A DNA stretch of 64,000 bases from Panopea generosa (lineage: Eukaryota; Mollusca; Bivalvia; Adapedonta; Hiatellidae): assembly GCA_029582155.1 (NCBI GenBank), contig CM055905.1, forward strand, positions 9,501,495-9,565,494, in the 5' to 3' direction. The notes beneath the pieces were generated by a model. It made no database searches, was not told the origin of the DNA, and was given only the letters and a program-made list of their open reading frames with translations. The stretch's first letter is position 1; each line of letters starts with the position of its first letter. Of the stretch, positions 3,005-60,112 are shown in pieces. Both the position numbers and the translations under genes were made by a program.

Positions 3005-3148
3005 CTAAGTAAGGTATGGTAATATGTAATCCTCGAAAATGCGTTTATTATCATGCCACTGAGTGTGGTTAATCCCCGGAACACTATGGATAATCAAATC
3101 CCCTCTCTCATCAAGGGTTCGTAGCCCGAAGGAGTCGTCGGTGTACCA
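3005..3148 (-). CDS. PPT2: PPT2-like exon 9 (terminal; catalytic His)
   Basis: The acceptor TTTTGCAG at 3149-3156 precedes TGG TAC ACC in phase 0. The exon encodes residues 238-284: [16 protein letters not shown], then [12 protein letters not shown], then DYILPYLT and TAG. H265 in GINHTQWH aligns with the family's catalytic histidine. Confidence 0.92.
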   Translation of the reverse strand, partial: WYTDDSFGLRTLDERGDLIIHSVPGINHTQWHDNKRIFEDYILPYLT

Positions 3149-9100: not shown

Positions 9101-12100
9101 TTTTTCTATAAAATGTCAGTAAATTTTCGTTGAGGGCAGCCAAATCGGTATATTCAACTTGTACAAGAATTGTATACTATACTCGTATAAGGTCCACCCT
9201 TTTGATAATGCGTAGGACTGTTATTTCATATATTTAAATTCCATTAACAAACTGGAAACGGGCCTCGCAATAATTTTGATATGATTATCACTCAGTGCAT
9301 GTTCAAATATGTACGAAAATAATACAATATTCTAGCGCCGTTGTTTGAGCTGTAAGATTTGTTTTTGAATCTGAAAGTTATACTTAAAATCTTGAAAATT
9401 AACATTTAAAAGCAAGAAATTGTGTTTTTAGAATCTAGATGCATACAAGATATCTATAGTGTCATCTTCTCAAAAACCTGAACAATGAAAAGCATCAGCT
9501 ATGATGTTATCTGGAGAAACATAAAATATATTAATGCAACATAAACGACAAAAAACACACTTGCTATTTAATGCATATTTTCGATACCGATTGTCAAGTA
9601 AAATGTTGTTTACTGATAAAAAAAAACTGGCACCAGTTTTACTAAATATCTCAACTTGAGATTTCCCTTAATACAATTTTTGAAATTTTATAACTTCCTT
9701 TACATTGATTAGTTTGCACGTTATACTTTACAAATGCGTACAGGTTTGTTCCAACTTCAATCATGTGCGGTCATTTAATATATAACGAGTTCAAGTCTTT
9801 ATTTAGAGAAATTGATTTTTTTTAGTTGAGAAAAATCTTAGATTGAGATGTTAAGTGACACCGGCCTTAGATATTAAAAAAAACATTACCTCGATTGCCA
9901 CGGTCCTATCACATCGTCGTTTGGTCCGCCGAGCATTACTAGTTTGTTGAGGCGAAGGAAGTTGGATTTGAACACTAAAACATAACAGCTCATCTTGAAA
10001 TGAATGTTAAACAACAGTTACTATATTCTTTATGTTGATAATAATGATGTTATTGGCATCTATCACTCTATCATCAAGCTCACACTCTCGTGCTATCACT
10101 CTATCATCAAGCTCGCACTCTCGTGTTATCACTCTATCATCAAGCTCGCACTCTCGTGCTATCACTCTATCATCAAGCTCGCACTCTCGTGCTATCACTC
10201 TATCATCAAGCTCGCACTCTCGTGCTATCACTCTATCATCAAGCTCGCACTCTCGTGCTATCACTCTATCATCAAGCTCGCACTCTCGTGCTATCACTCT
10301 ATCATCAAGCTCACACTCTCGTGCTATCACTCTATCATCAAGCTCACACTCTCGTGCTATCACTCTATCATCAAGCTCACACTCTCGTGCTATCACTCTA
10401 CCATCAAGCTCACACTCTCGTGCTATCACTCTATCATCAAGCTCACACTCTCGTGCTACTCTATCATCAAGCTCACACTCTCGTGCTATCACTCTATCAT
10501 CAAGCTCACACTCTCGTGCTATCACTCTATCATCAAGCTCACACTCTCGTGCTATGATATTACGACGGGGGAAGGGCGAGCTCGGATCCTCCAGTAAACC
10601 AGGGGTGGTATTCACCAAACATTCTTAAGCATATTCTTAGACTTGAACTCAAGAATGAATTTTGAAAAACACACTTAGAGACCGTTGTTTGACACCAAAA
10701 TTTGCAAGCATGTAAAGACATTTAATATATAGTCAAATAAACTCTCACACTTATTATTTATGTAATAAGAAACTAGATATCTAAGGATGAAATTCAAAGA
10801 AGTCTAAGAATATTTTCAAGAACGGTTGGTGATTACGACCCAAGGTATAAGCTTCCTAAGAAGGATTTTGCTAATGAATGTCCCAAGGCTGTAACCTCCT
10901 CTGTGTAAGTATTGCAAGATGATAATTTTATGTCATTGCTTATGTTTATGCTGTTCTGGTGGTCGATTTCTTTGAAAGCTACTTCTAATAATGGATATTT
11001 ATTTTCTGACTTTAAATTAAAAGGTCTTGGTTAACGAACATAAAATGAATAAGAAAAGCCGCAACAGAGTCGGTTCGTAGATGTTGTATAAAAATTATAA
11101 CTCGATTATGCAAGCGAGTGATTGTTTGCAACCCACACCACCCACTATTACTTTGAGGACACTACAGTATAAAAATGAAAAATAGATAAAGGACCGAACT
11201 GCACGTCTAAACTAAGGTAAACACCGTTTGCTTTCAGATGAATTTACGACTGGGACTTGAACTCAAAGTTTCACCATTATTAAATACTGTGTAACTGCCA
11301 ACTATTTTTGTAGAAAATGCAATGTGATTTTTAATAATTTTCTGTTAAAGTGGCAATAAAATGATAATTTTGAATTGCCTTTATTTTTTTTTTAAATTCA
11401 CTTTCTGTGTTTACAGAAATACGTGCTCGATTTTACATATTTCAATGAAACTATTAATTGTAAATCAAAAGTATATGCTTCCTACGTATACGTAATACAA
11501 GTGATTCCTGAGCAACGGGCTAATTGATATACAACTTACTTTGACTCTGTGAATTGTAGGTTTCATTATTCAGAACTGGTAGAAATGTGCATTTTCTTCT
11601 GTATAAATCTTGGTGCAAAGGGTCTGATTAAAAGAAAAATAGATAACATTACTTTACTCGTTGTAATGCCAAAATGTCATCAGTTATTAAATATTCTTCA
11701 ATGATGCAAACATAGTTATGGTTATTAACTGAATAAGAAACTTGTCGGTAACATTAAAGGTAGTTCGCGGCGTTCCTATCAGATTTTTGACATCTGGCGT
11801 AAATTATCAAAAATCTGTACACATATACTATGAACTATAAGCTTTCGTTTTAGCTTTGTCCATTTATTCTAATTGACCTGACGCTGCCTGTCAATCAAAC
11901 AAGTCGATAATCCAATCAGCGATCGATACTGTTTCAAGAGCCGCCATTTTCCTTAGAACGGTCTCTGTTAAACGCTACACTGTATTTACAACTTGAGCAA
12001 ACAACGCCACGTGGGCAGTAGATGGAGCGACAGCCGCTCTCACGCCAGGTCACTCATATTGTGTCATGTACACAGATAGTCCGAGTTTATGTGTTGAACA

Positions 12101-13604
12101 AAATATGTATCATATTAAAAACCTACTGACCTTTCCAATAATTGAAGACGGAAACGAGCTGCCCAAACCACGTATATGCTATTCTGAAATGAATATGAGG
12201 CACGTCAGGCCAGTTTCTAGAATTTATTATATTTCTGAATATTTTTATAAGCGAGGTTCAACTTCATTATCCACACATGGCATTGGTTATATGTCCGGTT
12301 TTAATGGTTAAAGAAGACTTCAAAATGAATCTGAGCAGCAATCTTTCGAGCATAACGTTTTTAGACCGAGCTATGTTCGAATCCACGACCTCAGCATTGA
12401 GAGGTCAGAGGTCAGTAATCGACAACGCCTTAGACTTTCGGCGGAACAGGAAATTGGAATACAGGGCATATGTGTATAATAATAACATTAAAGTGATGAG
12501 CAAAAACATGGCTTTCGCTATTAATCTGATTATTTTCTTAAATTTGTATTAGAAGAAAAATATATAAATATTTGTATTTTTAAAATGGAATCGTTTCGTA
12601 TTCAAATCAAATAAATAACTCTTTAACGTAACCTAAATTAGAATTTTATTTCAAGTTCCAAAAGTTCTTATTTTTTCCACCGAGAAAGATGTCAACAGAC
12701 ACATTCACACATGAACTACCCAAGCTACATGATATCTACGTTTTATTAACAACGTAGTACAATCCAATAAAACTATTTTCTAGAGGTAGACGATTCCGAT
12801 CTCTTAGTGTTGCACACAGAACAACCCAATAACATTGCGTATTGCCACTTACTCCATAGCTTAAGCGTATCATTTTGTTTAAAGGGATTACATTGGCATA
12901 TTACCGTCAATTTCCTGTTCTAAATACACACGCCCAGCATGAAGATACACTTATAACTTAGAGATATACGCGTCTAAAGTGTCTAATTGCATAACCTCTT
13001 TATTACAAACATCGGGGTTTCTGAAGCCACGTTTTTGTTTTTGTTTACATTTGCCATTTTTTACGAACCGCTTTCGGGTTTCCGATCAATCTTCGGATAA
13101 CATCGTGAAGACTCGTTCCCGATCTCGTTTTCGAGGCTTTGTTCGGGAAGTTTACGGAGTTCAATGTAAACATTGCACAATACTTTATTGCTGGACGTAT
13201 TAAAGTTTTGGTCAATATTCAATTACTGTTAATTTGATAACTTTCAAATAAATAAAGGTTATTCGTCAATACATAAGCATTATTTTGTGCACACTGCATA
13301 CAGGAAAAAATCTGGATTAACAGCGTGTTTGTGTTACTTGCCAATGTAATCCCTTTAACTGCTCTAAGAGTCACGTACTCAAAAACAGTGTTTTATTTAA
13401 ATACAGTAATTGTCAATCGGAATGTTTTTTTGCACAACTTGTGATAGACGTTTGTTTTTTAGAAAAGCAAGCGTCGTATATGATCAAGACTATCCACTTA
13501 CTTGTAAACGTCCTTTATCGAAACCGCCAGTAAAGAGTCGATGTATTTGACAGCTGAAAGTTATATCATAACATGATTATTATTATTAGCCTCAACCCAC
13601 CCCC

Positions 13605-16600: not shown

Positions 16601-19600
16601 TTCAAGGTGTTGGAAATAGCATTGGCCATTATTTCTTCATTTCTACTATAATACGGAATAAAAGAACGTACGTGCGAACTGTCCCGCTTGCGGACTACTG
16701 AGGGAGATAAATGTATCAGCATTGTGCCGTATAGTCTCCAGTACCCCACGGCATATCAGTCCACCTACAAAATATGTAACGAAAAATAAGATAGCAAGCA
16801 AATAAAAATGCTGTGGTAATATGCACCTGGCTATCAATCCAGCGGTCGTGAGTTCGCTCCCTCCCGTTCACAGGCTCCTTAATGATTGGTATACGACATT
16901 ACGTCTCCATGACGTTCGTCTCTCACAACTGATTCAAGTGTGAAATATATATTAGTTACTTGTGGAAATGTGTGTTCTCGAGTACTGGTTTATACTTTTT
17001 ATGATTCCAGGAAAGAGTGGTTAGGTGAACGGATCATTTGTTAGACCTTAATGGCAAAACATTACGCTAACTATTCGAACACACACTCCGGAAAACACAT
17101 GTATTATACAAAAGACGCAAGGTTAATAATTATGATGTAGCCTAACTTGAGTGATGTCAAACATTGTGCTAAAAATGCGATATGATCATAACGAGTATTA
17201 TACTGCATGTTAGTACCAAAAAAGGGATATTTAGATTGTATACATAAACCAACCCAGGGAGTAGGGATACATAGATTGTATACAACCTTGCAACAAACCA
17301 ACACTGGAAGTAGGGATATTAAGATTGTATACAACCTTGCTATAACATTTATACATAAACAACCCTGAGAGTGGGGATATGTAGATTGTATACAACCATG
17401 CTATAACGTAAATATATATACATAAATCAACACGGGGAGTGGGGATATGTCGATTGTATACAACCTTGCTATAACGTACATATATATACATATATCAACA
17501 CCGGGGGTGGGGATACGTACATTTCATACTACTTTGCTATAACGTATATACATATACACAGCCTGGGAGTGGGGATATGCAGATTATATACAACCTTCCT
17601 ATAACGTATATACATATACCAACACTGGGAGTGAGGATATTTAGATTATATACAACTTTGCTATAACGTATATACATATACAAACCCTGGGAGTGGGGAT
17701 ATGTAGATTATAAACAACCTTGCTATAACGAATATACATATACCAACCCTGGGAGTGGGGATATGTAGATTATAAACAACCATGCTAATACGTATATACA
17801 TATACACAGCCTGGGCGTGGGGATATGTAGATTATAAACAACCTTGCTATAACGTATATACATATACACAGCCTGGGAGTGGGGATATGCAGATTATATA
17901 CAACCTTGCTATAACGTTTATACATATACACACCCTGGGAGTGGGGATATGCAGATTATATACAACCTTGCTATAACGTATATACATATACAAACCCTGG
18001 GAGTGAGGATATGTAGATTATATACAACCTTGCTATAACGTATATACATATACACACTCTGGGCGTGGGGATATGTAGATTATAAACAACCTTGCTATAA
18101 CGTATATACATATACACAGCCTGGGAGTGGGAATATGCAGATTATATACAACCTTGCTATAACGTATATACATATACACACCCTGAGAGTGGGGATATGC
18201 AGATTATATACAACCTTGCTATAACGTATATACATATACACACCCTGGGAGAGGGGATATGTAGATTATATACAACCTTGCTATATTGTATATACATATA
18301 CACACCCTGGGCGTGGGGATATGTAGATTATAAACAACCTTGCTATAACGTATATACAAATGCCAATACTGGGAGTGAGGATACGTAGATTATATACAAC
18401 CTTGCTATAACGTATATACATATACCAACACTGGGAGTGAGGATATTTAGATTAATTACAACCTTGCTATAACGTATATACATATACAAGCCCTGGGAGT
18501 GGAGGTATGTAGATTATATACAACATTGCTATAACGTATATACATATACACACCCTGGAAGTGGGGATATGTAGATTGTATACATCCTTGCTATAACGTA
18601 TATACATATACACACCCTGGGCGTGGGGATGTGTAGATTGTATACAACCTTGCTATAACGTATATACATATACACACCCTGGAAGTGGAGGTATGTAGAT
18701 TATATACAACCTTGCTATAACGTATATACATATACACACCCTGGGAGTGGAGGTATGTAGATTATATACAACCTTGCTATAACGTATATACATATGCACA
18801 CCCTGGAAGTGGGGATATGTAGATTATATACAACCTTGCTATAACGTATATACATATACACACCCTGGGAGTGGGGATATGTAGATTGTATACAACCTTG
18901 CTATAACGTATATACATATACACACCCTGGGAGTGGGGATATGTAGATTATATACAACCATGATATAACGTATATACATATACACACCCTGGAAGTGGGG
19001 ATATGTAGATTATATACAACCTTGCTATAACGTATATACATATACACACCCTGGGAGTGGGGATATGTAGATTATATACAACCTTGCTATAACGTATATA
19101 CATACACACACCCTGGGAGTGGGGATATGTAGATTGTATACAACCTTGCTATAACGTATATACATAAACAAACCCTGGGCGTGGGGATATGTAGATTATA
19201 AACAACATTGCTGTAACGTTTATACATATACACAGCCTGGGAGTGGGGATATGTAGATTATATACAACCTTGCTATAACGTATATACATAAACAAACCCT
19301 GGGAGGGGGGATATGTAGATTATATACAACCTTGCTATAACGTATATACATAAACAAACCCTGGGAGTGAGGATATGTAGATTATATACAACCTTGCTAT
19401 AACGTATTTACAAATGCCAATACTGGGAGTGAGGATACGTAGATTATACACAACTTTGCTATAACGAATAAACATATACCGAAACTGGGTGTGAGGGTAT
19501 GTAGATTATATACAACCTTGCTATAACGTATATACATATACCAGCACTGGGAGTGTGGATATGTAAATTATATACAACCTTGTTATAACGTATATACAAA

Positions 19601-22600
19601 TACAAACCCTGGGCGTTGGGATGTGTAGATTGTATACAACCTTACTATGTCGTATATACATATACCAACACTGGGAGTGAGGATATTTAGATTGTATACA
19701 ACCTTCTTATAACGTATATACATATACAAACCCTAGGAGTGGGGACATGTAGATTGTATACAACCTTGTTATAACGTATATACATATACCAATCCTGGGA
19801 GTGGAGGTATGTAGATTGTATACAACCTTGCTATAACGTATATACATATACACACCCTAGGAGTGGGGACATGTAGATTGTATACAACCTTGTTATAACG
19901 TATATACATATACCAATCCTGGGAGTGGAGGTATGTAGATTGTATACAACCTTGCTGTAACGTATATACATATACCAGCCCTGGGAGTGGGGATGAACCA
20001 TGCTATAACGTATATACAAATGCCAATACTGGGAGTGAGGACACGTAAATTATATACAACCTTGCTATAACGTTTATACATATACCGATACTGCGTGTGA
20101 GGGTATGTAGATTGTAAATAACCTGGCTATAACGTATATACATATACCAGCAATGGAAATGCGGGTGTGTATGTAGTTTATATACAACCTTGCTACAACG
20201 TATATACAAATACAAACCCTGGGAGTGGGGGTATGTAGATTATATATAACCTTGCTATAACGTATATACATATACCGATACTGCGTGTGAGGGTATGTAG
20301 ATTGTAAATAACCTTGCTATAACGTAAATACATATACCAGCACTGGGAGTGGGGATATGCAGATTATATACAACCTTGCTATAACGTATATACATATACC
20401 GATACTGCGTGTGAGAGTATGTAGATTGTAAATAACCTTGCTATAACGTATATACATATACCAGCACTGGGAGTGGGGATATGCAGATTATATATAACCT
20501 TGCTATAACGTATATACATATACCGATACTGCGTGTGAGGGTATGTAGATTGTAAATAACCTTGCTATAACGTATATACAAATGCCAATACTGGGAGTGA
20601 GGATACGTAGATTATAAACAACCTTGTTATAACGTATATACATATACCAACACTTCGTGTGAGGGTATGTAGATTATAAATAACCTTGCTATAACGTATT
20701 TACATATACCAGCACTGGGAGTGGGGATATGTAGATTATATACAACATTGCTATAACGTATATACTTATACCGATACTGCGTGTGAGGGTATGTAGATTG
20801 TAAATAACCTTGCTATAACGTATATACAAATGCCAATACTGAGAGTGAGGACACGTAGATTATATACAACCTTGCTATAACGTATATAGATATACTAGCC
20901 CTGGGAGTGCGGGTGTGTATGTAGATTATATACAACCTTGCTATAACGTATATACATATACAAACCCTGGGAGTGGGGATATGTAGATTATATACAACCT
21001 TGTTATAACGTATATACATATACAAACCCTAGGAGTGGGGATATGTAGATTATATACAACCTTGCTATAACGTATATACATATACAAACCCTGGGAGTGG
21101 GGATATGTAGATTATATACAACCTTGTTATAACGTATATACATATACAAACCCTAGGAGTGGGGATATGTAGATTGTATACAACATTGCTGTTACGTATA
21201 TACATATACCAGTCCTGGGAGTGGGGATAAACCATGCTATAACGTATATACAAATGCCAATACTGGGAGTGAGGACACGTAGATTATAAACAACCTTGTT
21301 ATAACGTTGATACATATACCGACACTTCGTGTGAGGGTATGTAGATTGTAAATAACCTGGCTATAACGTATATACATATACCAGCCCTGGGAATGCGGGT
21401 GTGTATGTACATTATATACAACCTTGCTATAACGTATATACATTTCAAAACCCTGGGTGTGGGGATATGTAGATTATATACAACCTTGTTATAACGTATA
21501 TACATATACAAACCCTGGGAACGGTGATATGTAGATTGCATACAACCTTGTTATAACGTATATACATATATCAACCCTGGGAGCGGTGATATGTAGATTG
21601 CATACAACCTTGTTATAACGTATATACATATACACACCCTGGGAGTGAGGATATGTAGATTATATACAACCTTGCTATAACGTATATACATATTCACACC
21701 CTGGGAGTGGGGATATGTAGATTATATACAACCTTGCTATAACGTATATACATATACACACCCTGGGCGTGGGGATATGTAGATTATATATAACCTTGCT
21801 ATAACGTATATACATATACCGATACTGCGTGTGAGGGTATGTAGATTGTAAATAACCTTGCTATAACGTATATACAAATGCCAATACTGGGAGTGAGGAT
21901 ACGTAGATTATAAACAACCTTGTTATAACGTATATACATATACCAACACTTCGTGTGAGGGTTTGTAGATTATAAATAACCTTGCTATAACGTATTTACA
22001 TATACCAGCACTGGGAGTGGGGATATGTAGATTATATACAACCTTGCTATAACGTATATACATATACCGATACTGCGTGTGAGGGTATGTAGATTGTAAA
22101 TAACCTTGCTATAACGTATATACAAATGCCAATACTGAGAGTGAGGACACGTAGATTATATACAACCTTGCTATAACGTATATAGATATACTAGCCCTGG
22201 GAGTGCGGGTGTGTATGTAGATTATATACAACCTTGCTATAACGTATATACATATACAAACCCTGGGAGTGGGGATATGTAGATTATATACAACCTTGTT
22301 ATAACGTATATACATATACAAACCCTAGGAGTGGGGATATGTAGATTGTATACAACCTTGCTGTTACGTATATACATATACCAGTCCTGGGAGTGGGGAT
22401 AAACCATGCTATAACGTATATACAAATGCCAATACTGGGAGTGAGGACACGTAGATTATAAACAACCTTGTTATAACGTTGATACATATACCGACACTTG
22501 GTGTGAGGGTATGTAGATTGTAAATAACCTGGCTATAACGTATATACATATACCAGCCCTGGGAATGCGGGTGTGTATGTACATTATATACAACCTTGCT

Positions 22601-25600
22601 ATAACGTATATACATTTACAAACCCTGGGTGTGGGGATATGTAGATTATATACAACCTTGTTATAACGTATATACATATACAAACCCTGGGAGCGGTGAT
22701 ATGTAGATTGCATACAACCTTGTTATAACGTATATACATATACACACCCTGGGAGCGGTGATATGTAGATTGCATACAACCTTGTTATAACGTATATACA
22801 TATACACACCCTGGGAGTGAGGATATGTAGATCATATACAACCTTGCTATAACGTATATACATATACACACCCTGGGAGTGGGGATATGTAGATTATATA
22901 CAACCTTGCTATAACGTATATACATATACACACCCTGGGCGTGGGGATATGTAGATTATATATAACCTTGCTATAACGTATATACATATACACACCCTGG
23001 GCGTGGGGATATGTAAATTATATACAACCTTGCTATAACGTATATACATACACACACCCTGGGAGAGGGGATATGTAGATTATATACAACCTTCCTATAA
23101 CGTATTTACATACACAAACCCTGGGAGTGGGGATATGTAGATTATATACAACCTTGCTATAACGTATATACATATACACACCCTGGGAGTGAGGATATGG
23201 AGATTATATACAACCTTGCTATAACGTATATACATACACACACCCTGGGAGAGGGGATATGTAGATTACATACAACCTTGCTATAACGTATATACATATA
23301 CACACCCTGGGAGTGAGGATATGTAGATTATATACAACCTTGCTATAACGTATATACATATACACACCCTGGGCGTGGGGATATGTAAATTATATACAAC
23401 CTTGCTATAACGTATATACATACACACAACCTGGGAGAGGGGATATGTAGATTATATACAACCTTGCTATAACGTATATACATATTATACACACCCTGGG
23501 AGTGGAGATATGTAGATTATATACAACCTTGCTATAACGTATAAACATATACACACCCTGGGAGTGGGGATATGTAGATTATTTACAACCATGCTATAAC
23601 GTATATACATATACACACCCTGGGAGTGGGGATATGTAGATTATATACAACCATGCTATAACGTATATACATATACACACCCTGGGAGTGAAGATATGTA
23701 GATTATATACAGCCTTGCTATAACGTATATACATACACACACCCTGGGAGATGGGATATGTAGATTATATACAACTTTGCTATAACGTATATACATATAC
23801 ATACCCTGGGAGTGGGGATATGTAGATTATATACAACCATGCTATAACGTATATACATATACACACCCTGGGAGTGGGGATATGTAGATTATATACAACC
23901 TTGCTATAACGTATATACATATACCAACCCCGGGAGTGGGGTGTGTAGATTATATACAACCTTGCTATAACGTATATACATATACACACCCTGGGAGTGG
24001 AGATATGTAGATTATATACATCCTTACTATAACGTATATAGATATACCAGCCCTGGGAGTGCGGGTGTGTATGTAGATTATATACAACCTTGCTATAACG
24101 TATATACATACACACACCCTGGGAGAGGGGATATGTAGATTATATACAACCTTGCTATAACGTATATACATATACACACCCTGGGAGTGGGGATATGTAG
24201 ATTATATACAACCTTGCTATGGCGTATATACATATACCAACCCTGGAAGTGGGGATATGTAGATTATATACAACCTTGCTATGACGTATATACATATACC
24301 AACCCCGGGAGTGGGGTGTGTAGATTGTATACAACTGTGCTATAACGTATATACCTATACCAGCCAACGAGTGGGGTGTGTAGATTGTATACAACTGTGC
24401 TATAACGTATTTACATATACACACCCTGGGAGTGGCAGATCAGGTGGACTCCGTCTGGATGTTTTGCCATGAACGCCGCCATCTCGAGTTTGATGTTCTT
24501 TATCTGTGTGTGCATATTTGTGAAGCTCCGATATCTCTGATAGCTGCTTATAGCGAGCGTCTCTGTACCCGGGTGGGCCTGAATTACATGACAAACCACT
24601 GTTTAAGATATATTTACGCTGAGAAAAAGACAATATCTCAATAGCAGAGAATTTCCACAGTATTGTTTTTAAACTTGATTATTTTACGTCGACTGAGGAA
24701 AAAGGTCGAACCCACGACCCCTCCTGGGTGTGAAGCTTGTTTCAAGTGATGTTTGTGTTTCGTCTTTCAGTATTCAATATGAAACTATAGTCAAACCTGT
24801 GTAAGCGGTCACCTCTATTAAGCAACCATATTTTCTCTTTCCTTTGACTGACTGCTTAAGACAGGTTTAACTGTAACCCAATCCCTCTCGGCCTCCTATA
24901 TTAAAGAGTTGTATATTTTAAGTCTGGAGCCTCCGTTGCCGAGTGGTCTAAGGCGCTGTCTCAAGATCACTTACCGGTTCGAGTCCCGCTCACTTAAAAA
25001 ACTTTATGTGAGAAAGTTTGCCAGTTACTTTCGGAAGGACGGTGATTTTACTCAGTCTGAGGTCTTCCTCCACCAGTAAGGCTGGATATGCCATATATAA
25101 CCTGATATGTGTTGAAAATCGCGTTAAACCATATTAAAAAAATGAAAATGTAAGCCAAAGACGACAAATAAATATCAGACTCCTGTGTTTGCTGTTACAA
25201 TAATAATGTGTCTAATGGCTAATTACATAGCTGATCGCTGAAACGATCATTATGTTCGCTGACAGTCGTTAAATAACTGAAAATATTGTTGAAAAGGAAC
25301 AAACACTGATATGAATAGACATTGTCCATCGTATATAATCAATTAGAGTTATGATTAGTAGTACAAATTTATTAAACACTGGTATGTTTTTATGTCATTG
25401 TAATAGAAAACAATATTTACTGTTCGCAAAACCCCAGATTTAAAGTCGCATTAACAATGTTTTAATTAATGCATTATCTCGACATGTACATAGCCTTTAT
25501 ATCAATATCTTAAAATATTGTTTTATATACATATTTACTGAACGGAACAGCTAACCCGCCACCGGACATTTTTTGTTAGTTGAACGGAACAGCTAACCCG

Positions 25601-28600: not shown

Positions 28601-29071
28601 TTTCTTTACACTTTTGATAACTTTCTTTCATATTAAAGTATAGAAGAAAGAGATCATTTTACAGTGTTTTATACACTATGGGAATATATTGTACTCGAAC
28701 GTATTATGGTGAAAACCATAGTGGACGAGACGACGTATATGTATTCCCATATTGTACAAAACACTGTAAAATAACCCAATAATGTACAATTCTTGTAAAA
28801 AATATTGTTAAAACCAATAACAATCGATATTCATTCATCCATTTTTTTGTAGCAACGAATACAAAATCTCTCAATTATTGTTTATATATCACAGTAAATC
28901 TTTGTATAAAGCTTTAACTATTAATATTTTATTTACCTCTTTTATCCATTGAAATATCTTGGTTGCCGATTGAATGCTTCCTGTAACTCCGTGCATGAAA
29001 ATGATAGGTTTGTAGCACTGGACACCGACACGCAGCAGAGATAGCCATGTGAATATTTTGACAAAAATCAT
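3005..29071 (-). CDS. PPT2: PPT2-like lysosomal thioesterase, nine coding exons, 284 aa
   Basis: The nine exons are listed separately. Joined, they give 852 coding nt plus TAG, with all phases compatible. The product starts with a signal peptide ([19 protein letters not shown]) followed by YKPIIFMHG, as in palmitoyl-protein thioesterases. It has nucleophile elbow HLICHSQGG (Ser95), then [37 protein letters not shown] (catalytic Asp, probably Asp210), DDSFGLRTL and GINHTQWH (His265). Spacings Ser-Asp 115 and Asp-His 55 match my memory of human PPT2 (117 and 55; 302 aa). N-X-T sequons occur at N182 and N264. The family removes thioester-linked acyl groups from lipid-modified substrates in lysosomes; PPT2 is preferred over PPT1 because of GGPxD and SSPQxGQ. 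No lesion is seen. Introns 2, 6 and 8 contain tandem arrays. Confidence 0.93.
3149..4537. other. PPT2-like intron 8, distal part: no recognisable feature
   Basis: AT-rich intronic sequence. Short ORFs on both strands lack codon structure or known motifs. I see nothing to annotate. Confidence 0.5.
4538..5330. repeat. 15-bp minisatellite in PPT2-like intron 8 (about 50 units)
   Basis: The array repeats CACAGTCACTACCCT with variants (GTTACT, CTGACAG, CTTGCAG). Scattered shorter units such as CAGTCACTACCCT shift the frame. The long ORFs here ([14 protein letters not shown]) exist only because 15 is a multiple of 3 and the unit lacks stops. Confidence 0.92.
5331..6659. other. PPT2-like intron 8, middle part: only a decayed tRNA-like trace
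   Basis: Around 5615-5680 a pol III A-box-like GATCAGTGGTTATAGC is followed by tRNA-like text, probably an old SINE. A poly-G tract lies near 5895. No gene is seen. Confidence 0.4.
6660..6865 (-). mobile_element. tRNA-derived SINE, family C
   Basis: On the minus strand the head GGTCTAGTGGTAGAGCGTCC is an A-box region. The body includes GAAGCTTCCTCGCTTGGCGC and ATTCCAGTGTGGCAGCGCTC. The same head and body order recurs at 49735-49930. No clear target-site duplication was found. Confidence 0.65.
7004..7058 (-). CDS. PPT2: PPT2-like exon 8
   Basis: The acceptor ATTTACAG precedes C TGT TTT GGA, completing Ser219 from exon 7. The exon encodes [18 protein letters not shown] and ends at AAG with donor GTAAAC, phase 0. 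This matches the family stretch following WQSS. Confidence 0.92.
7059..8119. other. PPT2-like intron 7, proximal part with an inverted repeat at 7724-7785
   Basis: Arms 7724-7745 (ACAACGATGGTGAAAAGTCG) and 7762-7785 are inverted copies, with a third related direct copy from about 7670. This looks like a small dispersed repeat. A decayed B-box-like sequence lies near 7290. No coding sequence is recognised. Confidence 0.4.
8120..8255 (-). mobile_element. tRNA-derived SINE-like sequence, family D
   Basis: On the minus strand GCGTGGTTCAGTGGTAGATC resembles an A box and GGGTTTGATCC a B box, 30-40 nt apart as in a tRNA. The downstream body contains TGTCCTTGAGCAA, also found near 9005-9022. It is too short to fix the ends. 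Confidence 0.5.
8256..9889. other. PPT2-like intron 7, distal part: no recognisable feature
   Basis: AT-rich sequence without supported genes; only the short TTGCTCAAGGACA repeat fragment near 9005 is shared with 8160-8180. Confidence 0.45.
9890..9974 (-). CDS. PPT2: PPT2-like exon 7 (catalytic Asp)
   Basis: The acceptor ATGTTTTAG precedes TG TTC AAA TCC, completing Met191 from exon 6. The exon encodes [20 protein letters not shown] then VIGPWQS, and ends TCG AG with donor GTAATG. D210 aligns with the second D of the family motif GGPDDG. Confidence 0.93.
10060..10555. repeat. 33-bp minisatellite in PPT2-like intron 6 (15 units)
   Basis: The unit is CTATCACTCTATCATCAAGC followed by TCGCACTCTCGTG. 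Unit 1 and units from about the eighth on carry A where units 2-7 carry G (TCACACTC versus TCGCACTC). One unit at about 10456 has a 3-nt deletion. All frames stay open because 33 is a multiple of 3; this is not coding. Confidence 0.95.
10602..10841. mobile_element. MITE, family 2, with about 42-bp terminal inverted repeats
   Basis: The left end GGGGTGGTATTCACCAAACA...TTCTTAGACTT is matched in reverse complement by the right end AAGTCTAAGAATATTTTCAA...GATTACGACCC. The interior is non-coding and AT-rich. It sits immediately beside the 33-bp array in intron 6. Confidence 0.7.
11540..11623 (-). CDS. PPT2: PPT2-like exon 6
   Basis: The acceptor TTAATCAG precedes AC CCT TTG, completing Asp163 (KDP) from exon 5. 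The exon encodes [20 protein letters not shown] then TYNSQ, ending CAA A with donor GTAAGT (phase 1). N182-E-T is a sequon. Confidence 0.93.
12131..12183 (-). CDS. PPT2: PPT2-like exon 5
   Basis: The acceptor TTCATTTCAG precedes A ATA GCA TAT. The exon encodes [17 protein letters not shown] and ends AAA G with donor GTCAGT. FGQ..S.FNYWKD is the family's conserved block. The plus-strand ORF overlapping it (12066-12311) is a shadow. Confidence 0.92.
12879..13358. mobile_element. MITE-like element with perfect 20-bp inverted ends, flanked by TTAA
   Basis: TTAAAGGGATTACATTGGCA at 12879-12898 is exactly inverted at 13339-13358. TTAA could be the target duplication. The interior holds a block at about 13111-13165 that recurs at 31147-31199. 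It lies in PPT2-like intron 4. No transposase is encoded. Confidence 0.6.
13502..13553 (-). CDS. PPT2: PPT2-like exon 4
   Basis: The acceptor TAACTTTCAG precedes CT GTC AAA TAC. The exon encodes (P)[16 protein letters not shown](K) and ends TAC AA with donor GTAAGT. It is the least conserved exon, supported by the Y-x-x-x-L pattern and by exact phase fit on both sides. Confidence 0.86.
13604..13653. repeat. (CA)n microsatellite
   Basis: A run of about 24 CA repeats with a single AA interruption, in PPT2-like intron 3. Confidence 0.95.
14098..14377 (-). mobile_element. tRNA-derived SINE, family A, full length with 14-bp target-site duplication
   Basis: The minus-strand head is tRNA-like (GTCCGATTAGCTCATC, then GGGGTCGTGAGTTCGAATCC as B box). 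The body contains CAGTCTCCG, TGATTCAAGTGG and GGTGTGCTCGAG, and the tail is a (TCAA)-like run. CTATAGAAATAAGA flanks both ends at 14084-14097 and 14378-14391 without mismatch, proving a retroposition and suggesting a fairly recent one. Related copies are at 16803, 50688 and 51161. Confidence 0.88.
15920..16127 (-). mobile_element. tRNA-derived SINE, family B
   Basis: The minus-strand head CCTCCGTGGGCGATTGGTCT and B box TTCAAGTCCCG resemble a Leu/Ser-type tRNA. The body has TGTGTAAGAAAGT and the 3' part CTGGATATGCCATAT. It is the same family as 24928-25130 and 48696-48800. Confidence 0.72.
16672..16764 (-). CDS. PPT2: PPT2-like exon 3
   Basis: The acceptor ATTTTGTAG precedes GT GGA CTG ATA, completing Gly97 of the GxSxG-type elbow. 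The exon encodes [20 protein letters not shown] then [10 protein letters not shown] and ends GCA C with donor GTACGT. ISLSSPQxGQ is highly characteristic of PPT2. Confidence 0.94.
16803..17060 (+). mobile_element. tRNA-derived SINE, family A, 5'-truncated
   Basis: It begins within the tRNA-like head (GGCTATCAATCCAGCGGTCG) and continues through TGATTGGTATACGACATTAC and GTTCTCGAGTACTGG to the family tail. It is diverged from the copy at 14098-14377. Confidence 0.72.
17224..24435. repeat. 62-bp satellite array filling PPT2-like intron 2 (about 115 units, 7.2 kb)
   Basis: The consensus unit is ACACACCCTGGGAGTGGGGA, then TATGTAGATTATATACAACC, then TTGCTATAACGTATATACAT, then AT. Successive TATAACG motifs lie 62 nt apart. 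Units are most uniform in the middle and right parts and decay toward 17224. A 1.2-1.3-kb block is duplicated (about 20750-21500 and 22050-22670) and a 124-bp dimer recurs at 20270-20540. The right end reaches 24435, so it overlaps the last 11 nt of exon 2. Many short ORFs on both strands ([16 protein letters not shown]) are repeat artefacts. Confidence 0.95.
24425..24578 (-). CDS. PPT2: PPT2-like exon 2 (catalytic Ser)
   Basis: The acceptor GTAATTCAG precedes GCC CAC CCG, in phase 0 after exon 1. The exon encodes [20 protein letters not shown], then [20 protein letters not shown], then [11 protein letters not shown], with Ser95 as nucleophile. It ends CAG G at a weak donor, GTGTGT; exon 3 begins GT GGA, restoring SQGGL. 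The last 11 nt (CCACTCCCAGG) and the donor are also the core of the 62-bp satellite unit. Confidence 0.94.
24787..24877. repeat. Dispersed repeat with inverted ends (AAACCTGTGTAAGCGGTCAC type)
   Basis: It runs from GTCAAACCTGTGTAAGCGGT to CTTAAGACAGGTTTAACTGT, an imperfect inverted repeat. A longer relative is nested in a MITE at 27897-28085. It is probably a small non-autonomous DNA transposon. Confidence 0.5.
24928..25130 (+). mobile_element. tRNA-derived SINE, family B, near full length
   Basis: The head GCCTCCGTTGCCGAGTGGTC with TAAGGCGCTG resembles a Leu/Ser-type tRNA; the B box is GGTTCGAGTCCCG. The body has TTTATGTGAGAAAGTTTGCC and the 3' part GGCTGGATATGCCATATATA. Confidence 0.78.
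25131..25537. other. PPT2-like intron 1: AT-rich, nothing recognised
   Basis: No coding, RNA or repeat feature could be supported here. Confidence 0.4.
25538..25950. mobile_element. MITE family 1 copy whose left terminus is repeated five times in tandem
   Basis: TGAACGGAACAGCTAACCCG followed by CCAC...TTTTTGTTAGT is repeated with a period of about 42 bp from 25539 to about 25740. The ordinary interior (TATTTTCTCAAAAAG) and an inverted right end (GGCTGGTTAACTGTTTCGTT) follow. It lies in PPT2-like intron 1. Confidence 0.75.
25951..27044. other. PPT2-like intron 1: AT-rich, nothing recognised
   Basis: Low-complexity TA-rich runs around 26420-26700. No gene or repeat family was identified. Confidence 0.4.
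27045..27610 (-). pseudogene. Decayed 3' end of a LINE ORF2 (C-terminal region after the RT)
   Basis: The minus strand reads, in broken frames, [12 protein letters not shown], then [45 protein letters not shown], then [20 protein letters not shown]...LxxETGRY...ERxC..C...xEDExHxLxxCxxYxDLR is the usual C-terminal zinc-knuckle region of several LINE clades; here the first two cysteines are degraded. Several stops are present. No RT is recognisable upstream. It is inserted in PPT2-like intron 1. Confidence 0.65.
27743..28165. mobile_element. MITE family 1 copy interrupted by a second repeat
   Basis: The left end CTGAACAGCTAACCAGCCAC and the right end GGCGAGTTGGCTGTGTCGTT are the family ends. 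Between 27897 and 28085 lies a copy of the repeat with ends AAACCTGTCTTAAGC and GCTTACGCAGGTTTGAC, nested inside. Confidence 0.65.
28166..28653. other. PPT2-like intron 1: AT-rich, nothing recognised
   Basis: No feature could be supported. Confidence 0.4.
28654..28773. repeat. Imperfect 60-bp-arm inverted repeat with 4-nt loop
   Basis: The arm starting TCATTTTACAGTGTTTTATA is matched in reverse complement by the arm ending ACAAAACACTGTAAAATAA. The centre is TATGGT-GAAA-ACCATA. It is either a foldback transposon or a hairpin transcript from PPT2-like intron 1. Confidence 0.7.
28937..29071 (-). CDS. PPT2: PPT2-like exon 1 (signal peptide and HG loop)
   Basis: ATG at 29071-29069 in context CCAGGATGA gives a hydrophobic signal peptide [19 protein letters not shown], then [20 protein letters not shown] and FQWIKE, ending GAG with donor GTAAAT (phase 0). 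The frame stays open for about 25 codons upstream but holds no ATG there, so this Met is chosen. HG contributes to the oxyanion region in the family. Confidence 0.9.
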
Positions 29072-52690: not shown

Positions 52691-55040
52691 GGGTGAATGG
52701 GTTGAGTGCGTTTGCGAGTTACATGCATTGATTCTGTTTTGGATAGATTAAAAGTAGCCAGCCATTTATTTGACTATTCAGATATTTTATTTATGGCAGA
52801 ATTTAATGTCTGTGCAGAATTAACAATAGCATTATTATGATTAATTATAAAGTAAAGGCTTGTATCATCGGCAAAAAGTCGTATGTTGGGAGTGAATATC
52901 AGATACTATGTCATTTATATAAACTAAAAACAAAAGAGGACCTAATATAGATCCCTGGGGAACACCGGCTTTAATTGGTCTCCAATTAGACCTCGCGCCT
53001 GGAATGACAACACATTGGGGTCTGTCTTTAAGATAGTCAGTTAAAAGATTCAAAAGTTGACAAGATATACCAGCTGCTTTCAATTTAGCCAACAACCCTT
53101 TGTGCCAAACTCTATCAAAGGCTTTACTTATATCAAAAAATACAACTCTGACCTCTTTGCCATCGTCAATCGCTTTGCAGAAGGTAATATATAGAAATGA
53201 GAGCTGGTTTATAGTTTAATAACCAGGCACAAAACCAGATTGAAATGAAGAGAGAAAGTTACTATCTCGAAAATAATCGAACATATGCTTAAATATGAGC
53301 CTTTCAAATACTTTATTCAATACACTAAGAAGTGAAATTGGTCTGTAATTATTAGCCAAAGACGGGTCTCCTTTCTTGTAAATAGCACATACGAACGCTT
53401 CCTTCCAAACTTTAGGATAAAAACCGTTTGTTGAACAAGTGTTAAACAAATCACACAGTGGGGTCGATAATTCATGACTTAGTTCACGGAGCACATAATT
53501 ATTAAATTTATCGGGACCTGATGTTTTTCCAGCTGGTAACGACTTAAGAATACTGCACACATCGATGGGTAGTAAAGCAAGATCTAGTAAAATTGGGATG
53601 TTTTGTCTAGGTATCAAAATAAGTGGTTCAATGTTATCGTCATTTAAGATTGTCTGAGAATGGAAAAAATGAATTTAGTAAGTTGGCTTTTAGCTCAAAA
53701 TCGGAAATAATAGTTCCATTGTCATTCAGTGGAGGAATTGCTAGCTTGTCATTTGAAGAGATGAACGACTTTAATATTTTCCACCAGTCTTTGGGAGAGA
53801 GAGATACAGAATTAAGTTTACTTGCTAAATTATCATAGTATGACTGCTTTGCTAGGCGTATAAGTTGGACGACCTCTTTACGTTTTTTTTTTAGATCTGT
53901 TCCAGTGGTATATTTCGTTAGATCTCTTTGCCTTCTTAAAAAGCCTTTTACGGGCCCTAATATTCTTTTTTAACTCAGTGGGTATCCACGGAGGTTCATG
54001 CGGTTTAATTTTAATGATTTTATTTGGAATACATATATTTGAATGTTCATTAAATTTATTAGCAACATTGGTAGCATACACGCCTACATCATCGCTAGAT
54101 AGTTCGTTCCAGTTAATGTGAATAATTTTATTTTTTAAAAGAGCATAGTCACCAAGTTCATATTTCCAAATATGTCTCTCAAAAGCTAATTGTTTGTTTT
54201 TCTTGAATTTAAATATACCGTATATCGGACAACGGTATCGGATATCTTGATTTAGAAACGGATCTGCGACACCACTTTTAATAAGGCTGTCTTTATTACT
54301 TAAAATTTAAATATCAATTAGAGACGATGAATTCTCAGTAAAGTTGGTGGGATCTTTAATAGATTGAAATAGACCAAACTGTTGACATATATTGTCAAAA
54401 CTTTGCAATGAAACATCATTCAGCATATTATAGTTCAAATCACCAGTAACAATTATGTCTTTGATACCAGTATCGACAGCAAGATTTAAAGAATCTTCAA
54501 TTAAGTAATTATAAGCAGCGTCACAATTTGGAGGTCTGTAAAAAAACACCTAAGCATATGTCTGTGCTTAATAGTATTTCAACCCATACGCATTCTAGAC
54601 GAGTGATTTCTAAGTCATTTCTACGAGAAAAATGAATTGTCTCTTTAATATACATAATAACACCACCGTGGCTATCCCCAATGCGATCTTTTCTTATTGG
54701 TTTATGGAATGATGGAAATTCTAGATCAGCTGACGCAACAGTATCATTAAGCCAAGTTTCGGAGAATGTTAATATTGCAAACCCATACAGTTCAGAGTAG
54801 ATTGTATCTAATTTGTATTTGATACTTTGAACATTATAACGAACAAGAGAAAGATTATGTGAAAAGTCGAAGGCTTCCAAACTATCTGATAGGAACGAAG
54901 TAGATGAAACTGAGATGTTATTTGCAGTTGAGCCTACAGGACCTGGGTTTGGGTGAATATCTCCACAAGTCAGCAACAAAATGAAGATCCATTTTAGCAG
55001 TGTTGTTAAACAAACGGAACGTATTAAGCATTTTGTAAAA
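52475..55040 (-). pseudogene. LINE A ORF2: 2A-like start, APE endonuclease, reverse transcriptase (CR1/L2-like), broken
   Basis: Read on the minus strand. A hydrophobic start and 2A-like GDIHPNPGP (about 54960) lead to the endonuclease: LVRYNVQSIKYKLD, SETWLND, SHGGVIMYI, frameshift, RPPNCDAAYN, IVTGDLNYN, SLIDI, in-frame TAA (about 54306). Then come PPWIPTELKKNIRARKRLFK and the RT: SLPAGKTSGPDKFNNYVL, YKKGDPSLANNYRPISLLSV, SFQSGFVPGY, stop, VFFDISKAFDRVWHKGLLAK, AGVPQGSILGPLLFLVYIND, frameshift, RLFADDTSLYF. The thumb (SSHKHLGVYLPNNCSWHTHI) follows after a TG/G microsatellite. The element ends abruptly near 52475 without its 3' part. At least five lesions; not functional. Confidence 0.85.
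52658..52696. repeat. (TG)n(G)n microsatellite inside LINE A ORF2
   Basis: About 8 TG repeats followed by a G run of about 20 interrupt the RT thumb coding text of LINE A. Confidence 0.9.
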
Positions 55041-57448
55041 AAAACAAATTATTTTTAAAATGTTTGCCTAATAATATATAAGTTTATTGGGATATACAAT
55101 CTCAGAACGACACTGCGAAGCGCTTTTAATGTATATAAAGAACGAAATTGTATAGACTAAAGAGTGGTAGATAAACAGTAAAACAATAAACTGCAGTAAG
55201 GCTGAAAATTTGACTCTAACATTTATCAACGGTGTGCCTGTGCCAGAATATGTTTTCAAACAAATCATGTAATTGAAGAGAGGTAAATTAGAAACAGATC
55301 TTACACCAGCACAAAGTCGATCTTCAAAGGCAAAAAAAAATAGAGATTTCTAGAAATACAAACATAGGTGTTAAGATCAAACCGTCGCACAAGTAGTCCA
55401 TACATGAGTTCAGAACTTCTAAAGAAAAAAAATAGTGAAGAAAGCAAAAACTGATGTTATGAAAAACATGAAAATGTTCGGCATGTAAAAATGGAAAGGA
55501 GGTTAGCTGTAATATACATAATGCATTTTGTGTATGTAAGGATAGATACTTGGACTAAACAAGTAAGTTATACAGTACTTTCTGAAGTTGATAAACAACA
55601 CTTTGAAAAAAAAACAATAACTGAAAATCAACATAAAGTTATTTGCACAATGTCAGTTTAAGGTATTTTCAATGTTTTCAAGAAAAGTTTATACCTCAAT
55701 GATTGTAGGCACTTGATGTCACATTGTAGTGATAGATAGAACAACTAATTTAAGCTTAGGGATTAAAAAACATTAGCAACATAAATGATATGTTTTTTTG
55801 ACACTGCAATAAACATAGAATAATTGGTTCCAAAACAACTACATACAACGTTATTTTAAGATTTAGATATATGTGTAACATGATAACATGACGTATGACA
55901 GAGCCAACGTTAATACAATGGTCAGTTAAACATGTGACGGTGCCACTACGAACATAACAACAATGAAACAAAAACAAAACAAACAAAAAAACATCGCCAT
56001 GTTATATATAAATCCTTAAACACTAAATATTCAGGTTGTGCAAACGCAATAAAAAAATGCACGCTGGTCACCCAATCAACTGACCGTATAGACGTATATA
56101 GTTGTAAGTGATCAACTTTTCCAGGCAAACTTTCATGGGACAAGTTTATGTTATGATATATATAAATCCTTAAAAATACATATTTAAGCTAGGCAAACGA
56201 AAAAAAATCAACAACATAAGTGCACTCTGGTCATATAATCAATTGACCGTGTAAACCGTATATAGTTGGTAATCAAAATTTCAACGCAAAGCTTTCAAGG
56301 TACAAAATTTTATATGTTATATATATAAATCCTTAAAAAATGCATATTTAAGTGTGGCAAACGCAAAAAAAATCAACAACAACATAAATGCACTCTGGTG
56401 ACACAATCAATTTGACCGTTGAAGCCGTATATAGTTAGTGATAAAGTATCAAGGAAAAACTTTCAAGGTACAAGTTTATATAATGTTATATATAAATCAT
56501 TAAATATACATATTTAGGTTTAACAAACAAAAAGGATAACAATATAAATGTACCCTGGTGATACACTCAATTTGACCGTGTAAACCGTATATAGTTCGTG
56601 CCTTAGAAAATACATATTTAGGCTAGGCAATCGTAAGAAAAATATCAGAAACAACATAAATGCACCCTGGTGACTCAGTCAATTTGCCGCTTAAGCCGTA
56701 TATAGTTAGTGATTAAGTATCAAGGAAAAACTTTCAAGGTACAAGTTTATATAATGTTATATATAAATCATTAAATATACATATTTAGGTCAAGCAAACA
56801 AAAAGAACAATATAAATGCACCCTGGTGATACAATCAATTTGACCGTGTAAACCGTATATAGTTAGTGCCTTAGAAAATACATATTTATGCTAGGCAATC
56901 GTAAGGAAAAAAATCAGCAACAACATAATGCGCGCTGGTCATACAGTCAATTGACCATATAAACCGTATATAATTAGTGATCAACGCAAAACTTTCTCGG
57001 TACACGTTTACGTGATGTTATAAATAAATCCTTAAAAATACATATTTAGGCTAGGCAATCGTTTTACAAAAAAAAAAAAAAAAACATAAATGCATCCTGG
57101 TTACACAATCAATTTGACCGTCTATAGTTAGTGATCAACGTTTCAAGACAAAACTTTCAAGGTACAAGTTTATAAAGATAGTGTGTCAACTGTTAGCAGA
57201 TGTACAGGTATACTATATATAACAATTGAAATGGTTATTATGCAATCGATGTCAACTACATCACTATACAATTACACCGTTATGTGTCCACGGATTATAA
57301 CAGAGCGAAGTACAAAGCGGTAACTACTCTATACTGTTCAAAAAAGTCATTGTCACATAGTAATATAAAACTTAACCAATGTGAGACTGGACATCAGCAT
57401 ATAGTAAAGTTATTGTGATGTCTGCGGGTAACCAGACAAATCGTAAAC
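55041..57448. repeat. LINE A inter-ORF region containing a 160/110-bp tandem array (about 56000-57190)
   Basis: GACCGTGTAAACCGTATATA recurs eight times at spacings of about 163, 169, 161, 109, 159, 110 and 163 bp. Units share ATAAATCCTTAAAAATACAT and GCACTCTGGTG-like text. Long and short units alternate, giving a higher-order repeat of about 270 bp. Positions 55041-56000 are plain AT-rich sequence. Confidence 0.82.
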
Positions 57449-58261: not shown

Positions 58262-59086
58262 GTTTAACCTCCTAAACTTTTTTGAGCACTATACTTCAAA
58301 AAAATTGTCGAGCGACTTGGCTAGTTATAGCTATTACAAAGTCAGTGGAATAAAAGACTATATTCATATAAAATCAAAGCGAGATGAGGCTATCACTGTG
58401 TAAACAAACGAAGTAATTGAAGAAAACGGCTAGAAAAACGTCGAGAGAATCCAAATTTTGGCATAAATCATCACAGTACGAGAGTTCCAAACATACTTGA
58501 ATCACCTCCAAATTTCCACAGCCTTATTAAGAACTGATTAAATCATTATGACAATATATTTTGTTGCGAGAAAAAAAATTACTGTGTTTCCGCCATCTTG
58601 TCACGTGAAAGAGATGAAGTGGGGGTTTGGCCTCCATCAAGAAAATTTTGAAAATTAGAAAGCAAATGTTGCGTTATCGTGCTATATTTCAGCGTAAATA
58701 TGGCATTTAATATGGTCAAGGTCAAGTAAATAGAACGGTGGTGTTTATTTTCGGTCGGATAATTTTGAGGATTTAAGGCAAAAACCATGAGGTAGAACTT
58801 TTTTTAAGTAGATACGCTTGTTTGTGAATGTGTATAGACTCTATTTCAAATTCAAAATTCAAACAGACACAGCAACTATGGCTGTAAGTCGACGACATAA
58901 AATGTAAATCAACACTAATATATAGCGCAGGGAGCCGCCATTTTTATAAACATGAAAATGTGTGTATGAATGACTAACAGTAAAAAAACGATAAAGTACA
59001 ATAGTAAACGACCCACGCACGGACAATTCAAATGTATACTGTGAGGCAAAAGATACGCACAGGTATTTATAAAAGCAATGTGAAAA
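58262..59086. promoter_or_regulatory. Shared upstream region between two divergent LINEs
   Basis: The two ORF1 starts (58261 minus and 59087 plus) face away from each other across 825 bp, so both 5' UTRs and promoters should lie here. No specific promoter motif is recognised. The junction between the two elements cannot be placed. Confidence 0.35.
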
Positions 59087-60112
59087 ATGTCTACTAAAGA
59101 CAAGCGTAAGAGATTAGATGATTCCAGCATTAGTAGCATTAGTAATTGGGACAATAGTCTGGAAACAATAGTAGAAAACATAAACGAAGGTGGGAAGAAG
59201 CTTAATAAGAAAACTAAAAACAAAAACAAGAATAAAAAGCAGAAAAAAATTGAACAGATAGAAACTCAAGAAGACAAAATGGCAGAACGACATGAAAGTA
59301 TGTCTATTGAAAAAAAACTCGATGAAATGAACGAAAAATTAAGTAAAATGCTGACAAAAGACGATAAAGCCATTTTTAGAGAAATAATAAAAGACATCTT
59401 TAGAGAAATGAAAGATCAATTTCTCGAGTCAATCACCAAAAGAGTAGACGTTCTAGAAGGTGACCTACATGATAAAGTTGTGGAAAATAAAAAGTTAAAA
59501 GTCGAACTAGATAAGATGAAAAATGAAATAAACAGTAAAAATGAAGAAATACAGAAGGTTAAAGAAGAAGTGAAAGTAGAGTCAGAAAAAAGTAAAGAAA
59601 GGCTAAACGACATTGAGCAATACGGACGAAGAAACAACATGCGTATAACGGGCCTTCAGAACGACGGGCCATATCAAAGTTCACAAGAAACAGCATGGCA
59701 CGTAACCAATTTTCTAAATGAGAAAATGCAACTTGGGATATCTGTGCACCAAATAGATATAGCTCACCGGCTTGGAAAACACACTCCAGGTAAAAATAGA
59801 CCGATAACTGTAAAGTTTGTGTCGCGTCAAGTAAAAAGTAACATCTTCTCACATGCAAAACTCCTAAAAAATTCAGGAGTCTACATAAATGAAGACCTGA
59901 CGCGTCTTAACCAAGAAGTGTTGTCATCAATGCGATTAAAATGTAACGATAAGATAGAAAGAGCATGGTCTTTTGAGGGCAAACTATACAAAAAAACAAA
60001 AGAAGGAAACAAACCAGAAATCGTTTCATACAGTCAGTATGCCACGTGGTTAAATCTCCCATGGCCGGCAAAGAAGACCTCAGCCGAAGTATTACAAAAG
60101 AAGCAAAAGTAA
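59087..60112 (+). CDS. LINE B ORF1: intact 341-aa L1-type RNA-binding protein
   Basis: The uninterrupted ORF has a lysine-rich start (NKKTKNKNKNKKQKKIEQIE), a long coiled coil (about residues 65-185, e.g. KLDEMNEKLSKMLTKDD and ENKKLKVELDKMKNEINSKN), an RRM-like core beginning IEQYGRRNNMRITGLQNDGP with IDIAHRLGK, RPITVKFVSRQVK and YINEDLTRLNQ, and a C-terminal domain ending KKTSAEVLQKKQK. This is the ORF1p class of L1/Tx1 LINEs, expected to trimerise and bind element RNA. It has no lesion, unlike its neighbour LINE A, suggesting a younger insertion. Base composition is strongly A-rich on the coding strand, as in L1-like elements. Confidence 0.9.
   Translation: MSTKDKRKRLDDSSISSISNWDNSLETIVENINEGGKKLNKKTKNKNKNKKQKKIEQIETQEDKMAERHESMSIEKKLDEMNEKLSKMLTKDDKAIFREIIKDIFREMKDQFLESITKRVDVLEGDLHDKVVENKKLKVELDKMKNEINSKNEEIQKVKEEVKVESEKSKERLNDIEQYGRRNNMRITGLQNDGPYQSSQETAWHVTNFLNEKMQLGISVHQIDIAHRLGKHTPGKNRPITVKFVSRQVKSNIFSHAKLLKNSGVYINEDLTRLNQEVLSSMRLKCNDKIERAWSFEGKLYKKTKEGNKPEIVSYSQYATWLNLPWPAKKTSAEVLQKKQK

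Follow-up and report, generated by a model that had tools for sequence, protein, structure and literature searches.

A 62-bp tandem array in intron 2 of a Panopea generosa PPT2-like gene, probably derived from tandem duplication of an exon-intron boundary

How can an intron come to consist almost wholly of a tandem repeat whose first unit begins inside the preceding exon? The question is raised by a 64,000-nucleotide stretch of the genome of the bivalve Panopea generosa (assembly GCA_029582155.1, contig CM055905.1, here G000:C12:9501495-9565494), referred to below as the window. It contains a PPT2-like gene, gene A, on the minus strand. Intron 2 of this gene is 7,660 nt long, and a 62-bp array makes up 94% of it. 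Judged from its sequence, the array is probably a mirage, that is, a minisatellite that arose by tandem duplication of an exon-intron boundary. Mirages are known from amphioxus, where such minisatellite-like duplications were described in Adh3 and in the globin genes BflGb6 and BflGb9 (PMC3087553, in the passages drawn on here). The genome searched was a single assembly of 1.47 Gb in 39 contigs; coordinates are window positions unless prefixed G000. The features on which the argument turns are these:

24425..24578, minus strand: PPT2-like exon 2, with the presumed nucleophile Ser near its end (homology search and sequence read)
24419..24424, minus strand: authentic donor GTGTGT of exon 2 (sequence read and donor scoring)
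17225..24435, minus strand: 62-bp tandem array of 117 units, which occupies most of intron 2 and reaches 11 nt into exon 2 (Tandem Repeats Finder, wrap-around alignment)
24425..24435, minus strand: last 11 nt of exon 2, CCACTCCCAGG, with which the exon-proximal unit opens (sequence read, unit alignment)
16672..16764, minus strand: PPT2-like exon 3, with the acceptor AG at 16765-16766 (homology search and sequence read)

Arrays were called with Tandem Repeats Finder, which placed arrays of 62 bp (also 186 bp) at 17297-24435, preceded by a degenerate part that starts at 17246. Wrap-around alignment, used to delimit the units, gave 117 of about 62 bp over 17225-24435; the first is the exon end itself and the last three are degenerate. 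A preliminary description of this DNA had reported a 62-bp array of roughly 115 units that overlaps the last 11 nt of exon 2 and is followed by the donor, and both the overlap and the approximate unit number were confirmed. The string CCACTCCCAGG codes for the third base of a Cys codon, then His, Ser, Gln and the first base of Gly. From it the array sequence runs on into the donor GTGTGTATATG.

The number of copies of the exon end is smaller than the same description supposed when it stated that most units, about a hundred, repeat the 11-nt string. Contiguous and exact, CCACTCCCAGG occurs 33 times, and the 22-mer formed by it and the donor 12 times, the real boundary being included in both counts. 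Counted by alignment column, which ignores insertions (16 units have one within the 11-mer), the string is without mismatch in 40 of the 117 units and has at most one mismatch column in 84. Many units, not all, keep the splice signal: GT stands at the donor columns in 79/117. The donor 9-mer AGGGTGTGT has 36 occurrences including the real one, a density of 5.0/kb in the array vs 0.42/kb in the rest of the gene. Downstream of the true donor, 35 further copies of this 9-mer are present.

The pattern of variation along the array indicates how it has turned over.

17225..17374, minus strand: distal units, the most diverged of the array (unit alignment and by eye)
24315..24435, minus strand: two exon-proximal units with private variants in common (unit alignment)
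20467..22362, strand not applicable: recent duplication within the array, copies 1,296 bp apart and 99% identical over 600 bp (self-comparison of the array)
21042..22813, strand not applicable: recent duplication within the array, copies 1,172 bp apart and 98.7% identical over 600 bp (self-comparison of the array)

As read from the unit table, the interior units are homogenised and the edge units are excluded from this, the distal ones being the most diverged and the two proximal ones carrying private variants. The second exon-proximal unit has a decayed exon-like part (CCACTCGTTGG) and no GT at its donor columns. Internal duplications at 98.7-99% identity show that turnover has been recent. 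Over 114 units (all but the three degenerate ones at the distal end), the exon-like part is not better conserved than the remainder (0.89 vs 0.92). Read by eye with internal deletions allowed, the distal end falls at a unit junction (in the sense direction ...AAATATCC, then CTTTTTTGG), and the array starts, in the exon, and ends at the same unit phase; the automatic alignment, made without those deletions, stops mid-unit there.

Three observations tie the array to the exon 2/intron 2 boundary. The 62-bp unit, searched across the genome, matched this locus only (counts from these searches are lower bounds), a homologous array is present in a paralogue, and similar events are found at other exons. 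The paralogues came from a protein search of the genome that recovered exons 2 and 3 of five PPT2-like loci, A to E (an eleventh match, on contig C1 at E 3.8, was ignored). The position of intron 2 is common to all five. Gene B lies on the same contig as A at 50.85 Mb, 41 Mb away, and a 49-bp array abuts its corresponding exon end, giving 35 alignment rows of which the first includes the exon and the last is partial. The match between the B exon, which reads TTC TCC CAG G, and its array is limited to 8 nt, so an 11-nt exon contribution is not required. Exon sequence is thus contained in the tandem units of both genes, 11 nt in A and 8 nt in B, with the splice site included, as it is in mirages.

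The A and B units are alike over 45 of 49 aligned columns despite a 13-nt difference in length; the A string in this comparison is a composite of A variants, and the score of 31.5 compares with a maximum of 9.0 in 1,000 shuffles. One distal B unit agrees with A in 42/49 columns and with the B consensus in 40/49. Homology of the units means either that the array is older than the A/B duplication or that A and B exchanged sequence; it was probably inherited through gene duplication. With the arrays masked, no match between the two second introns was found at E 0.01. In a tree of 82 columns A and B group together with weak support (87/47). Inspection of the introns of C, D and E showed no array at the exon 2/intron 2 boundary; a 46-bp array in C, unrelated, and a GTA microsatellite in D both lie further inside the intron. 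Several PPT2-like copies are present on C12, at 50.84-50.88 Mb and at 52.8 Mb, with B and E about 22 kb apart. A last exon at first taken as that of B sits upstream of B exon 1 and belongs to a neighbouring copy.

The shared intron position also bears on intron gain; protosplice-type CAG/G duplications had been named as a proposed route to the gain or growth of introns. Intron gain by AGGT duplication resembles what is seen here in that a tandem duplication across an intron-exon boundary copies the splice signals. The difference is that it creates a new intron, whereas here an old intron, present at the same position in five paralogues, was lengthened. The proposal that the intron is new at this position is ruled out by these paralogues.

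Similar events were sought at 52 exon loci by looking for repeats that extend over an exon edge. The set consisted of 10 PPT2 loci, with A and B among them, of 30 dynein loci (from 32 matches) and of 12 kinesin loci, the first of 126 matches. Several come from one gene, so not all are independent. Four of the 52 had matches at E 1.3e-10 or better, namely A, B, exon 3 of PPT2-E and a dynein acceptor on C19; a fifth, at 0.016, is at chance level. Reversed queries with the same exon-overlap filter were the control and gave matches in 6/52, all at E 0.002-0.018. A reversed control lacking the overlap filter, which was not used, had matches at 18/52 loci, one with an E of 1.2e-7 that was gone for that locus after filtering.

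In PPT2-E (L018, G000:C12:50871970-50875074) a two-copy duplication takes in 43 nt of exon 3, the donor and the intron start at an offset of 81 bp. The copies start at 50873508 and 50873427 and are 92% identical over 63 nt. The frame is open across both, the three differences in the exon part are synonymous, and use of the second donor would add 27 codons. At the dynein heavy chain locus (L047, 1297-1530; G000:C19:32273822-32276992) an acceptor boundary is repeated in 47-bp units, TTTATAG/AACTGTCAC, with about 9 nt of exon, the start of NCHLAASWM; Tandem Repeats Finder gives 3.4 copies, and there are three matching places besides the real boundary. From their sequences, the PPT2-E donor and the dynein acceptor look like earlier stages of a process that recurs in this genome.

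The course of events that probably underlies these observations can be outlined. In the common ancestor of A and B, a tandem duplication would have taken in the final 8 nt of exon 2, if not more, together with some 40-54 nt of intron 2; its probable mechanism is slippage or end-joining at short direct repeats. Unequal exchange would then have amplified and homogenised the units separately in the two genes, as their patterns suggest, to 117 copies of 62 bp in A and about 35 copies of 49 bp in B. The exon copy would be kept by coding selection and the intronic copies would drift, with no sign of splice constraint. The spliceosome most likely stays with the first, exon-defined donor, and the array would mainly lengthen the intron. 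The idea of seeding by duplication across the boundary was therefore right in kind: the tie to the boundary stands, the full 11-nt exon contribution does not, the copy number was wrong, and for the His codon the idea is probably wrong as well.

Several points weigh against an origin at the boundary. The shared exon stretch is short, 8-11 nt, and the homology of the exon part would rest on position and probability; the distal-end phase was read by eye, in a single assembly. Outside PPT2, 1 of 42 loci has a boundary repeat, and A and B were in the test set since they prompted the test. An array can lie near a donor and share no exon sequence with it: in L052 (568-1488; G000:C5:51137894-51141028) some 26 copies of a 35-bp unit begin near intron position +13 after a dynein donor. 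A genome search with the 49-bp unit found B and A, then weaker arrays on C7 (E 1.1e-10), C1 (5.8e-8) and C14 (7e-7). The C14 unit, from an array chosen by this search before shuffle scoring, aligns over its full length with the A and B units, its scores of 40 and 56 (shuffled means about 14) lying above 500/500 shuffles. A 17-nt core, GTTGGTATATGTATATA, occurs at least 25 times in the genome, 5 of them in the C14 array, which adjoins no recognised exon. If it is a true relative, the satellite may predate its contact with the exon. The C14 array itself (L035, 2906-3353) has 60-bp units containing GTTGGTATATGTATATA and ends beside a 102-aa open frame for which no match was found in Pfam or PDB.

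These points favour, to a degree, an ordinary intronic satellite, possibly one borne by a mobile element, that extended as far as the splice site and whose match to the exon is fortuitous. This is nonetheless improbable. Given the base composition of exon 2, an exon extension of 8 nt has a chance of 2e-5 and one of 11 nt a chance of 5e-7, the arrays of A and B adjoin the same exon end, and clear boundary duplications exist at other exons. The remaining copies of the 17-nt core are 8 in A, 5 in B and 7 elsewhere, the last figure to be set against 10 for the reversed control (both lower bounds), and the C1 array is near shuffled level (23/500 and 34/500 shuffles score as high). The array thus does not appear to be a common dispersed satellite, and the one on C14 may be its one distant relative. 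A further alternative gives the repeat a function, the identical decoy donors setting exon 2 splicing and expression through array length. Its attraction lies in the 35 downstream copies of the donor 9-mer and in the fact that, on an approximate position matrix, no GT site in the array outscores the true donor. The frame read from exon 2 into the intron gives HSQGVYM and then TAA, so that use of a decoy would truncate the protein. It is very unlikely all the same: the donor GT is kept in 79 units, the exon-like columns are no more conserved than others, three paralogues are without the array, and amphioxus mirages are reported, in the passages drawn on here, as not disturbing splicing (PMC3087553, PMC3902484). 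Nor is there support for the earlier view of the true donor as weak: on the same matrix it scores 7.97, and six other donors of gene A score 5.68 to 8.42. On the antisense strand of the array 12 sites score as high as the true donor, compared with a mean of 3.4 in shuffled arrays. Of the AGGT strings in the array, 91 read AAGGT and lie mid-unit, outside the exon-like part. Strict recursive splicing, with a zero-length AG/GT at the boundary, is unsupported since the units read CAG-G/GT, one base off. It was also considered whether the decoys closest to the real donor had been selectively weakened; units 2-4 are without the full 9-mer, but with 36/117 units carrying it the probability of this is about 1/3.

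The boundary duplication leaves one codon to be explained. At the position before the nucleophile Ser, the 120 homologues listed (of 414 that passed the threshold) have Tyr 63 times, Phe 56 times, Cys once and His never. The exon codon at this position is CAC (His) in A, TTC in B and E, and TAT in C and D. In A, 100 of the 117 units have CAC, the one in the exon being among them; in B, once the exon row is set aside, 31 of 34 rows have it. TAC is found in two A units, both at the distal end. Because His is in 0/120 listed homologues and CAC is in both arrays, the CAC of the arrays is probably older than that of exon A; homology of the arrays would place it before the A/B split. The simplest order is that about 8 nt (CTCCCAGG) were common to exon and array in the ancestor, that CAC was in the array, and that His appeared in exon A later. 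On the codon comparison, the exon A His codon probably arose after the array CAC and was perhaps taken from it; the last step may have been conversion from the array or mutation.

Two versions of this history compete. In one, about 8 nt of exon seeded the array and a short conversion tract later turned a Tyr or Phe codon of the exon into CAC. This would extend the match from 8 to 11 nt and alter a nearly invariant residue next to the catalytic Ser, and it is compatible with a mirage. The lack of His among the listed homologues, the TTC and TAT codons of the other four exons and the prevalence of CAC in both arrays make it a serious possibility, somewhat short of an even chance. It is held back by the fact that a single substitution, TAC to CAC, suffices if the ancestor had Tyr; the two distal A units with TAC allow a Tyr-type seed, and A and B differ at many other residues too. 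Slightly more tentative is the full proposition that a satellite born from an exon end edited that same exon, a conversion tract putting the array's CAC (His) in place of Tyr or Phe beside the catalytic Ser. Boundary-anchored arrays of this lineage could then be exchanging sequence with coding exons in both directions. The other version is that of the preliminary description, in which the complete 11-nt end CCACTCCCAGG of a His-bearing exon seeded the array and B later changed from His to Phe. All 11 nt do match in A, and CAC is in both arrays. This version appears unlikely: it requires a His ancestor, seen in none of the listed homologues, plus a two-base change in B, and the B array has TACACTCCC, not CCCACTCCC, ahead of the shared part.

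The gene that carries the array is recognisable in pieces at 29014, 24578-24425, 16764-16672, 12188, 11624, 9975, 7060 and 3145-3008, and is given as such; a counterpart of the human GDTDYLKWLFP stretch was looked for and not found. Besides exons 2 and 3, the following parts were delimited:

28937..29014, minus strand: PPT2-like exon 1, coding part up to the donor (sequence read)
12135..12188, minus strand: PPT2-like exon 4, part only (sequence read)
3008..3145, minus strand: last PPT2-like exon, containing GINHTQWH, presumably the region of the catalytic His (sequence read)

Exons 2 and 3 are PPT2-like by their matches to human PPT2 (1pja, E 4e-18) and to Pfam Palm_thioest (5.1e-17). Among the matches listed, the nearest proteins named by organism are from Mactra, Dreissena and Mya at 52-54% identity, and a fish protein at 42% identity ranks between those bivalve matches. 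Exons 2 and 3 of A and B differ by a dN of 0.14 and a dS of 0.76 over 240 nt (the misassigned last exon left out), which fits purifying selection. Elsewhere in the gene, a 33-bp array with 11 codons per unit lies at 10060-10555, in the intron preceding the exon at 9892-9975 and about 85 bp from it; several of its frames are open, on both strands. The window also has long open frames at 59084-63999 and 52868-55048 which, judged by eye, have the look of reverse-transcriptase-type retroelements.

Comparison with the known systems shows both likeness and difference. In the parts of the amphioxus account used here (PMC3087553), mirage units likewise span the boundary, on the 5' or 3' side; many of them, not all, have AG/GT signals, and they are homogenised within the cluster and less so at its edges. 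Sizes given there are 6 and 3 units of 150-160 bp for BflGb6, 157 bp for BflGb9 and units of 10-72 bp for Adh3. The Panopea array differs in having 117 units that fill 94% of an intron, in a bivalve and not a cephalochordate, and in having a homologous array of other unit length in a paralogue. In lancelet PGBD5, imperfect repeats of 60 bp and 108 bp abut 5' splice sites in 2-7 copies and overlap exons; in the relevant passages the authors likened them to the mirages of Adh, globin and troponin C, which are said not to disturb splicing (PMC3902484). The repeats of gene A are also in tandem at a 5' splice site and, unlike those in the PGBD5 passages, are almost wholly intronic. The array is larger than the amphioxus mirages described in the passages used from these two papers (PMC3087553, PMC3902484). 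A 27-bp minisatellite in intron 3 of an abalone gene is, in the portion of its source used, not placed at the boundary. No report of mirages in molluscs or bivalves was found in the open-licence literature, where absence is weak evidence.

Within the literature found here, mirages have so far been described only in cephalochordates. The Panopea genome offers an apparent series, from 2 copies at the PPT2-E exon 3 donor and 3-4 at the dynein acceptor to about 35 in B and 117 in A. Such a series makes the growth of introns and the tolerance of spare splice sites directly testable within one species. With one case among the 42 loci that are not PPT2 exons, boundary-overlapping arrays may well be numerous across the genome. 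Should the array prove to be the source of the His codon in exon A, it would follow that concerted evolution within introns can alter the active sites of proteins.

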